A DNA stretch of 54,916 nt, taken from Coriobacteriia bacterium (GTDB taxonomy: Bacteria; Actinomycetota; Coriobacteriia; Anaerosomatales; Anaerosomataceae). Each line of letters begins with the position of its first letter. Position 1 is the first letter of the stretch. Under the pieces are notes generated by a model, which was given only the letters and a program-made list of their open reading frames with translations, was not told where the DNA came from and searched no databases. The DNA is taken from positions 1-54,916 of the forward strand of contig JAFGVD010000035.1 in assembly GCA_016938135.1 (NCBI GenBank). Reading direction: 5' to 3'. The position numbers and the translations under genes are program-made. Positions 31,195 to 34,659 of this stretch are shown here, piece after piece.

Positions 31195-33021
31195 CTACTC
31201 CACCGTGACTGACTTCGCGAGGTTACGGGGCTGATCGACGTTGCAGCCGCGCATCTTGGCTATGTGGTAGCTCAGCAGCTGCATCGGGATCGTCGCCGGG
31301 ATCGCCGAGATGTCCTCTGACGTCCGCGGTATGTAGAGCACGTGCTCCGCATGGGCCCTGATCTCGTCGTCACCGTGTGTCGCCACAGCGATGACCCGCG
31401 CTCCGCGAGCACGCACTTCCTGGATGTTGGAGACGACTTTCTCGTATGTGTGACCCTGGGTCGCTACGACCACCACCGGCACCTCGGGGGTGATGAGCGC
31501 AATGGGGCCGTGCTTCATCTCGCCCGCAGGATAAGCCTCGGCATGTATGTAGGAGATCTCCTTGAGCTTGAGCGCACCTTCCATTGCGACGGGTACCCCG
31601 ACCCCTCTGCCCAGGAAGAGCGAGGACACGACATCTGTATACTCGCGTGCGCACGATTCGATCTCGTGCTCCTCGGCAAGTATGGCCTCCACGATATCGG
31701 GAAGCGTGGATATCTCCGCCCACAATGCTTCGATCCGATCCTGATCCAATGTGCCTTTTGCCTGCGCAAGCTTGAGCGCAAGCACGTTGAGCGCCGCTAT
31801 CTGCGCCGTGAACGTCTTGGTAGCGGCCACGCCGATCTCGGGGCCTGCGTGAGTGTAGATGACGCCGTCGCTCTCCCTCGTCACCCGGCTGCCCACCACA
31901 TTGGTGATCGCGAAGACCTTCGCTCCGCGGCGACGCGCCTCTCGCACGGCCGCAAGCGTATCGGTGGTCTCTCCGGACTGCGTGATAGCCACCACCAGGG
32001 TTTCATCGTCGACGATGGGATCGCGATAGCGGAACTCGCTGGAGACGTCCACTTCCACAGGTATGCGAGCCCACTGCTCTACAAGGTGCTTCGCGATGAT
32101 CGCTGCATGGTAGCTGGTACCGCACGCCACGATGAACACGCGGTCCACCAAGGAGAGCTGCGCCTCGCTCATCTGGAGTTCGGAAAGCTGCACGGTCCCG
32201 TCCGCATCCATCCTGCCGAGGAGCGTCTCGCGGATCGCCCGTGGCTGCTCGTGGATCTCCTTGAGCATGAAATCGTCGTACCCGCCCTTCTCGGCGGCAT
32301 CCAGGTTCCATTCAACGTGCAGCGTCTCTGGGGTTCTCGGCGCGCCGGACACGTCTGAGACGCGAACCTCCCCGGCAGTGACGGTGGCGATGTCGCCATC
32401 TTCAAGCACGAGGATCTCGCGAGTGTACTCCAGCACCGCAGGGATATCGCTTGCCACGATGTTCTCGCCATCACCCATGCCGATGATGAGTGGCGAGTCG
32501 GCCCGCGCGGCCACTATGGTGTCGGGCTCATCCAAGTGCACGATCGCCAGGGCGTACGCGCCTTCAAGGCGTTTGATGGTCTTGGCCACGGCCTCGGTCA
32601 GGTCACCGTCGAAGTAGCTTTCAACAAGGTGCGCCACGGTCTCGGTGTCGGTCTCCGAGAGCAGGATATGGCCGTTGGCCGCCAGCTCTGCGCGCAGCTC
32701 CACGTAGTTCTCGATAATCCCGTTATGCACAACGGCGATGCGCCCGGAGCAGTCCACATGGGGATGAGCGTTCTCAACGGTGGGCTTGCCGTGCGTCGCC
32801 CATCGGGTGTGACCGATGCCCACATTGCCGGACATCGGCGTGTCCGCCACCGCTTCGCGCAGGTTGACGAGCTTGCCGATACGACGGCCTACCTCAAGGT
32901 TCCCGTCACTGACGATCGCCATGCCTGCCGAGTCATAGCCCCGGTACTCAAGTCGCGCCAGCCCGCCGAGCAAGACATCGCTCGCCTGACGGGGTCCCAC
33001 ATATCCAACTATTCCGCACAT
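31195..33021 (-). CDS. glmS: glutamine-fructose-6-phosphate aminotransferase (isomerising)
   Basis: First committed step to UDP-GlcNAc: makes glucosamine 6-phosphate from fructose 6-phosphate and glutamine. 608 residues. The N-terminal nucleophile Cys2 is in MCGIVGYVG; glutaminase motif GHTRWATHG; two SIS isomerase domains follow, with CGTSYHAA, SGETTDTLAAVREA and the C-terminal DQPRNLAKSVTVE. The ATG has GGGAGG nine bases upstream. Expression is controlled by the ribozyme in the leader (33065-33234), which would self-cleave when the product accumulates. Confidence 0.98.
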   Translation of the reverse strand: MCGIVGYVGPRQASDVLLGGLARLEYRGYDSAGMAIVSDGNLEVGRRIGKLVNLREAVADTPMSGNVGIGHTRWATHGKPTVENAHPHVDCSGRIAVVHNGIIENYVELRAELAANGHILLSETDTETVAHLVESYFDGDLTEAVAKTIKRLEGAYALAIVHLDEPDTIVAARADSPLIIGMGDGENIVASDIPAVLEYTREILVLEDGDIATVTAGEVRVSDVSGAPRTPETLHVEWNLDAAEKGGYDDFMLKEIHEQPRAIRETLLGRMDADGTVQLSELQMSEAQLSLVDRVFIVACGTSYHAAIIAKHLVEQWARIPVEVDVSSEFRYRDPIVDDETLVVAITQSGETTDTLAAVREARRRGAKVFAITNVVGSRVTRESDGVIYTHAGPEIGVAATKTFTAQIAALNVLALKLAQAKGTLDQDRIEALWAEISTLPDIVEAILAEEHEIESCAREYTDVVSSLFLGRGVGVPVAMEGALKLKEISYIHAEAYPAGEMKHGPIALITPEVPVVVVATQGHTYEKVVSNIQEVRARGARVIAVATHGDDEIRAHAEHVLYIPRTSEDISAIPATIPMQLLSYHIAKMRGCNVDQPRNLAKSVTVE

Positions 33022-33064: not shown

Positions 33065-33234
33065 GCGCAGTCCGGTAAGACGCGCGCAAGATACCGGTCC
33101 GCTGTCGCTTTGTCTCCCGGTCACCCGGGTGCTTTGTCGACAACGTCACGACCCCGGTCAGGGCCGGAGGGCCATCCGCCGAATGATTCGATAGACCCCC
33201 GCCTCGTCACCTGATCTGCATCAGGCCCGGCGCT
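33065..33234 (-). ncRNA. glmS ribozyme (glucosamine-6-phosphate-activated self-cleaving riboswitch)
   Basis: The 303-base spacer between glmM and glmS contains, in minus-strand order, the conserved blocks of this ribozyme: A then GCGCC (cleavage between 33234 and 33233); a P1 stem CCTGAT-GCAG-ATCAGG; TGACGAGG (33202-33209); TCTATCGAA; TTCGGCGGATGG (33172-33183); CTCCGG; two GACAAAG blocks (33132-33138 and 33108-33114); and a distal stem CCGGTA/TACCGG (33092-33097, 33072-33077). The order and spacing match the known double-pseudoknot fold. Cleavage leaves a 5'-OH message that is degraded in Bacillus. The 3' boundary is approximate. Confidence 0.93.
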
Positions 33235-33284
33235 TGCGTTCAGGTTGCGCAGGCTCTCCTCTCAACTGTGACAGCTACGCTCAG

Positions 33285-33311
33285 ATTCTAGCAGAGCCCA
33301 CGTAGCGACAA
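33285..33311 (-). promoter_or_regulatory. candidate glmS promoter
   Basis: On the minus strand TTGTCG (33306-33311), a short 15-base spacer, then TAGAAT (33285-33290). The start site would fall about 45 bases before the ribozyme cleavage site. The short spacer lowers confidence, but the -10 box is good. Confidence 0.5.
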
Positions 33312-33324
33312 GGTTACATCCAGG

Positions 33325-34659
33325 CTACCCTAGCTCACGCTTGACTGCGGCGACGATGGAATCGACGACCTCGCTCGCGGTAGCCTGATCGGTCGCCTCG
33401 GCCATCACGCGTATCAGCGGCTCCGTCCCCGATGGCCGCACGAGCACCCGACCGTTCTCGCCCAGACGCTCCTCTGCCGCACGCACCGCATCGTGCACGG
33501 CGGCGCTGATCGACAGGCGCGCGCTGTCCGCGACGGGCACGTTGACCAGCACCTGCGGGAAACGCTGCATGACCTTCCGCAGCTCCGAGAGCGGTTTGCC
33601 CGTCCTCTTGATGATCGCAGCCAGGTGGATTGCCGAGACAAGCCCGTCGCCGGTGGTATTGTGCTCCAGGAAGATGACATGTCCGGACTGCTCGCCACCC
33701 AGACTCGCTCCGGAGGTCCTCATCTGATCCAGCACGTAGCGGTCCCCCACTTTGGTCTTTATGACGTTGACCCCAAGCCCTCGCATGGCCACTTCAAGAC
33801 CGAGGTTGCTCATGACGGTGGTCACGAGCGTGTCATGCGCCAGCGCCGAGCGGGCCATCATGTCCGCGGCACAGACCGCCATGATCTCATCGCCGTCGAC
33901 ATCCGCCCCGGCCTCATCCACCGCAAGCACCCGGTCCGCGTCGCCGTCATGCGCGATGCCAAGATCGAACTCCCCGGATCGGACCAGGTCGGACACTACC
34001 GACAAGTGCGTGGAGCCCGACTCGAGGTTGATATCCATCCCGTTCCAGTCGCAGTTCACGCTCACCACGTGAGCACCCAGTCGCTCCAGCGCGGCCGGCG
34101 TCGTCAGAGCCGAGGCGCCATGACCGCAATCCACCGCGATCCGCATCCCGGAAAGATCTCCGTCCACACCGCCAACAGCATGCGAGACGTAACGGTCGAC
34201 CGCATCGCCTATCAGGACCGCGCGCCCCACCCCGTCACCGGTCGGACGTGCCCAGTTCCTCTCGGACACCAGGAACTCCTCGATCTCGTCCTCGACCTCG
34301 TCGGGGAGCTTGAATCCGTCACGATCGAAGAACTTGATGCCGTTATACTCGGCGGGATTGTGAGACGCCGAGATGACCACGCCGCCATCAGCTCCCAGCA
34401 CCCGCGTGAGATAGGCGACCGCCGGTGTGGGGACCACCCCGCATCGCAGCGCGTCAGCACCGCCGGAGCAGATGCCCGAGACAAGCGCCGCTTCCAGCAT
34501 GTCGCCGCTACGGCGTGTATCCATGCCCACGACGATCTTGCCGCGACCGTACTCGCCCAGGAAATGCCCGGCAGCCTCGCCCAGCCTGAACGCCAGCTCG
34601 GGTGTGAGATCCGTGTTCGCAACACCACGGACGCCATCGGTACCGAATAGTCTGGCCAT
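33325..34659 (-). CDS. glmM: phosphoglucosamine mutase
   Basis: Converts glucosamine 6-phosphate to glucosamine 1-phosphate, the step after GlmS. 444 residues. Begins MARLFGTDGVRGVANTDLTPE; the phosphorylated serine is in VVISASHNPAEYNGIKFF; the metal loop is AHDGDADR; the C-terminal phosphate-binding loop is VRPSGTEPLIRV. It precedes the glmS ribozyme and follows rpsI by 77 bases, with a terminator hairpin in that gap. Confidence 0.97.
   Translation of the reverse strand: MARLFGTDGVRGVANTDLTPELAFRLGEAAGHFLGEYGRGKIVVGMDTRRSGDMLEAALVSGICSGGADALRCGVVPTPAVAYLTRVLGADGGVVISASHNPAEYNGIKFFDRDGFKLPDEVEDEIEEFLVSERNWARPTGDGVGRAVLIGDAVDRYVSHAVGGVDGDLSGMRIAVDCGHGASALTTPAALERLGAHVVSVNCDWNGMDINLESGSTHLSVVSDLVRSGEFDLGIAHDGDADRVLAVDEAGADVDGDEIMAVCAADMMARSALAHDTLVTTVMSNLGLEVAMRGLGVNVIKTKVGDRYVLDQMRTSGASLGGEQSGHVIFLEHNTTGDGLVSAIHLAAIIKRTGKPLSELRKVMQRFPQVLVNVPVADSARLSISAAVHDAVRAAEERLGENGRVLVRPSGTEPLIRVMAEATDQATASEVVDSIVAAVKRELG

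Follow-up and report, generated by a model that had tools for sequence, protein, structure and literature searches.

The window, the whole 54,916-nt (54.9 kb) stretch of Coriobacteriia DNA that was analysed, carries the gene series truA-rplM-rpsI-glmM-glmS-acpS-nnr-CBS protein-alr, with a predicted ribozyme in the spacer between glmM and glmS (Table 1). The first-pass annotation had read the series as glmM-glmS-acpS-nnr-alr, which is correct in its order and incomplete in its content, a gene for a CBS-domain protein lying between nnr and alr. When the window was scanned with cmscan, the only Rfam match at gathering threshold was to the glmS ribozyme family RF00234, which scored 92.6 bits (E 3.1e-20; curated gathering threshold 37 bits) and covered model positions 1–167 of 167. 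The match ends at 33091 and glmS starts at 33021 on the same strand, which places the element in the 5′ leader of glmS. The conserved blocks previously read from the letters (AAGCGCC, CCTGAT/ATCAGG, TGACGAGG, TATCGAA, TTCGGCGGATGG and two copies of GACAAAG) were all found in place, and alignment to the class cleavage site puts predicted self-cleavage where it had been expected. The 3′ edge, earlier drawn at 33065, is better set at about 33093, the end of pseudoknot P3.1.

Table 1 Coordinates of the features described in the text (window positions unless a locus handle is given)
Feature	Position	Strand	Evidence or remark
glmS, gene regulated	31195–33021	-	TIGR01135, 853 bits (cut-off 418)
glmM, upstream neighbour	33325–34659	-	TIGR01455, 548 bits (cut-off 448)
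Extended -10 promoter element TGCTAGAAT (putative)	33285–33293	-	Consensus match
glmS ribozyme (predicted)	33091–33245	-	Full-length RF00234 match
Predicted self-cleavage site A33234/G33233	33233–33234	-	Aligned to class cleavage site; AGCGCC invariant in 36 aligned homologues
Stem P1, 7 pairs, loop GCAG	33209–33226	-	5/7 pairs change on both sides (36 homologues)
Core pseudoknots P2.2 (33232–33229 with 33180–33177) and P2.1 (33206–33204 with 33191–33189)	33177–33232	-
Stem P2	33167–33200	-	5/5 pairs change on both sides somewhere
Stem P3	33149–33166	-	87% of cells paired; 3/6 pairs covary
Pseudoknot P3.1 (P3 loop 33158–33155 with 33096–33093, ACCG/CGGU)	33093–33158	-	4/4 pairs covary
Stem P4 with P4.1	33101–33144	-	All P4 pairs covary; P4.1, 5/7
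Family f51 ribozymes before the glnA-glmS pair	L196 1430–1672; L204 1437–1679		55–62 bits (low); long insertions
glmS-class ribozymes of family f18, immediately ahead of nagB	L213, L214, L216, L218–L220, L223–L228, L230; L189 3782–3931; L190 1534–1687

The structure was tested as 40 base pairs, including two pseudoknots, across 36 aligned homologues, with shuffled alignments and versions slid by one to three columns as controls. In the real alignment 89.3% of cells were paired, compared with 75.1% after shuffling and 33–47% after sliding, and 29 of the 40 pairs change on both sides. The letters of the core are invariant in all 36 homologues. P2.1 and P2.2 were assigned after the core map in PMC7125110; P2.2 (CGCC/GGCG) is paired in 36/36 homologues with zero variation, and in P2.1 the CGA strand is invariant and its UCG partner nearly so, such that the two core pseudoknots offer no test by covariation. 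The fold of the single sequence is only modestly more stable than that of its shuffles (z = -1.9), which we counted against the explanation favoured below.

Beyond the core, P3.1 joins the P3 loop to the stretch after P4. This pseudoknot is absent both from the Rfam model and from the first-pass annotation, and it covaries across Actinomycetota: its strands read ACCGG/CCGGU in most of the window's order, GCCAC/GUGG in families f46 and f30, GGGUG/CACCC or a variant of it in f18, and CGGGC/GCCCG in several members of f40. Swapping tails between families weakened P3.1 from a mean of -11.8 to -9.8 kcal/mol (s.d. 0.8), with 3 of 300 swaps reaching as low a value. In known glmS ribozymes, this 3′ pseudoknot aids cleavage.

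On the strength of the score, the invariant core and the covariation, it is very highly probable that the spacer element is a genuine glmS ribozyme within the glmS 5′ leader, acting in product feedback through cleavage dependent on glucosamine 6-phosphate (GlcN6P); the identity proposed in the first-pass annotation, and the covariance-model check suggested there, are thus borne out. A degenerate ribozyme, which still binds GlcN6P or folds and has lost cleavage, is very improbable given that every core letter conserved across the 36 aligned homologues is intact, AGCGCC, GACGAGG and UCGGCGG included.

Two further readings of the element do not survive comparison with its relatives. P1 had been called unusually short, yet its seven pairs fall within the normal range: the spacer between GCGCC and GACGAGG spans 16 to 73 nt across 81 homologues, and the 20 nt of the window, although at the short end, are matched or undercut (≤ 20 nt) in 15 of the 80 others. 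The doubled GACAAAG, which is shared with seven other homologues (eight in all), had been taken as a possible alternative register of the P3/P4 part. Both copies are indeed present, which would favour a second regulatory state built on such a register, but they lie one on each side of the P4/P4.1 internal loop and occupy two different conserved positions, the first aligning to a conserved AAA and the second to a conserved ACAAAG on the opposite side. Moreover, the number of ACAAAG words in other homologues varies from none to three while the fold stays the same, and it is in the standard register that P4 and P4.1 show covariation, with slid versions pairing far worse. The homologue alignment and this covariation together rule out a register switch between the copies, and the alternative state is scarcely credible.

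The element is ordinary in kind; it belongs to a known class, in a host group that is less familiar. With the RF00234 members of B. subtilis, B. anthracis and T. tengcongensis it shares the full-length match, the cleavage site, the double-pseudoknot core, the P3/P3.1/P4/P4.1 domain and the position before glmS. It differs from them in its high-G+C actinomycetotal host, in its short P1 of seven pairs with a GU pair at the base, and in its first loop motif, which is GACAAAG where the RF00234 consensus has AUAAAA. Other Actinomycetota ribozymes (in f18, f30, f40, f46, f55 and other families) are of the same class, with an invariant core among the aligned members, and form P3.1 with compensatory changes as the window's does.

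Upstream of the ribozyme, 29 of 31 members of the order have the motif TGnTAnnnT ahead of the cleavage site, mostly at 49–64 nt, and a generic promoter scan found no sigma-70 site. The conservation of this extended -10 element makes it probable that glmS is transcribed from a promoter of its own, behind glmM. Also observed at the same place across the order was a purine-rich stretch resembling a Shine-Dalgarno sequence (GGAGG/GAGGAG/AGGAGA; 33255–33264, minus strand, in the window), which lies 27–49 nt before the cleavage site in 21/31 members, compared with 3/31 in the preceding 70 nt. As candidates, a leader ORF following this stretch was ruled out by the absence, by eye, of a consistent start codon, and a leader hairpin sequestering the glmS ribosome-binding site by folds that vary between relatives.

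In the mechanism that we propose, a leader RNA transcribed from the promoter behind glmM would fold into a double-pseudoknot core of P1, P2, P2.1 and P2.2, braced by P3, P3.1, P4 and P4.1. When abundant, GlcN6P would bind the pocket and take part as cofactor in cleavage at A33234/G33233. The downstream glmS mRNA, now bearing a 5′ hydroxyl end, would then be cleared, with RNase J as the most likely nuclease, and the GlmS level would fall. RNase J1 degrades the equivalent product in B. subtilis, where cleavage in the presence of GlcN6P leaves the mRNA with a 5′ hydroxyl (PMC3328962, PMC7125110), and an RNase J gene is found in the window's genome (604 bits). By analogy, we infer that ligand, cleavage and decay follow the same product feedback as in the rest of the class.

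The distribution of the ribozyme was set beside a GlmS phylogeny. The ribozyme occurs in 49 of the 69 genomes of the window's order, and in 75 of 396 genomes of the Actinomycetota sample. The nearest named GlmS (90%) belongs to the 'Coriobacteriia bacterium' MAG JAUSOQ010000059.1, which has the same ribozyme at 99.6 bits. In the tree, the order's GlmS orthologues form one clade (support 100) that stands beside f18 and named Eggerthellaceae (support of the join 87), with f46 next.

The first-pass annotation had left the choice between an old shared feature and transfer. The single GlmS clade and the wide spread within order and phylum favour vertical inheritance in the window's order, with several losses, and thus an old inheritance inside Actinomycetota. 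Recent horizontal transfer of the ribozyme from Firmicutes, with or without glmS, would suit a class best known from that phylum (PMC11477304), and the presence of a ribozyme in only 2 of the 35 genera of f18 would fit either transfer or many losses there. However, the ribozyme is found in 14 of the 16 families of the order and in numerous further families of Actinomycetota, and the neighbours of the order's GlmS clade are other Coriobacteriia and Actinomycetota, which makes recent transfer improbable. The tree did not include Firmicutes, so that an ancient transfer is possible. If vertical inheritance holds, glmS ribozymes would be less a speciality of Firmicutes than an old possession of deep-branching Actinomycetota, one that has been lost repeatedly. 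They would also offer a broad natural set for study of the class, including the clearly covarying P3.1 that the Rfam model lacks.

The 20 genomes of the order that lack the ribozyme comprise seven with a distant GlmS, eight with an orthologous glmS and five with no readable GlmS. None of the seven distant-type genomes (GlmS identity 49–50%) has a ribozyme, and the five of them placed in the tree form their own clade apart from the order's GlmS; this separation suggests that glmS was exchanged and that the ribozyme was apparently lost along with it. Within the window's own family, loci L180–L184 (genera g5, g9, g10 and G077) encode a GlmS of 49–50% identity and carry no ribozyme, so that gene and switch were apparently replaced as one. 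The eight genomes that retain an orthologous glmS indicate that the ribozyme is dispensable. A lax-threshold scan of the glmS locus in twelve hit-less genomes of the order found no hidden or divergent ribozyme, and a weak hit in G124 (E 2.6e-4), a 39-nt core-like stretch in a 4-kb locus with no GlmS match, was set aside as chance.

A different arrangement was found in f18, another family of Coriobacteriia, represented by 140 genomes from 35 genera. Here ribozymes are confined to two genera, with 24 copies in 23 genomes, of which eleven precede glmS, as in the window, whereas thirteen precede nagB. The nagB-linked copies score 62–72 bits and lie 26–47 nt ahead of the nagB start codon; NagB is assigned as GlcN6P deaminase by TIGR00502 (381 bits, cut-off 237). 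In the six clusters that were read, the gene after nagB encodes a GlmU-like acetyltransferase domain (6/6), and glmM comes next in four of them (4/6). One genome, G395, has a ribozyme before glmS and another before nagB, in a row. Among the other 12 genomes with a nagB-linked copy, 11 encode a GlmS of 82–85% identity; a lax scan found no ribozyme at these eleven glmS loci, ruling out a missed copy there. No true GlmS was found in G770, a nagB-linked genome that is 77% complete. Genomes that carry the glmS-linked copy alone have only a distant NagB, about 40% identical.

This pattern suggests that in two f18 genera the ribozyme was either relocated, or duplicated with later loss of the copy at glmS, and may now control a nagB-acetyltransferase-glmM cluster, a reading that we regard as evenly balanced. 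If it is true, GlcN6P-triggered cleavage would switch the deaminase off just when its substrate is high. This puzzle would be resolved if NagB ran in reverse, making GlcN6P from fructose 6-phosphate and ammonia and so acting as a second synthase, or if cleavage before nagB raised expression; in both cases the glmS ribozyme class would have found a new use. The nagB-linked copies pose a testable question, namely whether NagB may serve in biosynthesis, under feedback from the metabolite that the ribozyme senses, and they ask what role a self-cleaving switch has before a gene for the opposite reaction. No report of a nagB-linked glmS ribozyme was found in the literature searched, which did not take in the main survey of the class. 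According to the abstract of McCown et al. (2011), only two of 463 glmS ribozymes reportedly lie outside glmS mRNAs.

In the 50-nt stretch preceding the nagB-linked ribozymes of f18 (L213–L230), a putative stem such as ACGGATTCCT/AGGAGTCCGT, with the loop GGAGGAGG, was seen by eye in several members, and it seems to be placed just before the cleavage site.

A further variant occurs in f51, at two loci in genomes of 1.0–1.4 Mb. Their ribozymes stand before a glnA-glmS pair, where the window's stands before glmS, and their core starts with GCGCA in place of GCGCC; glnA was named here from its sequence rather than from a family search. This arrangement would bring glutamine supply under the same ribozyme control.

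Finally, two f18 genomes were seen to have a ZMP/ZTP riboswitch near glmS (L292 14511–14590, plus strand; L253 1027–1106, minus strand), at 51–52 bits with a cut-off of 39.
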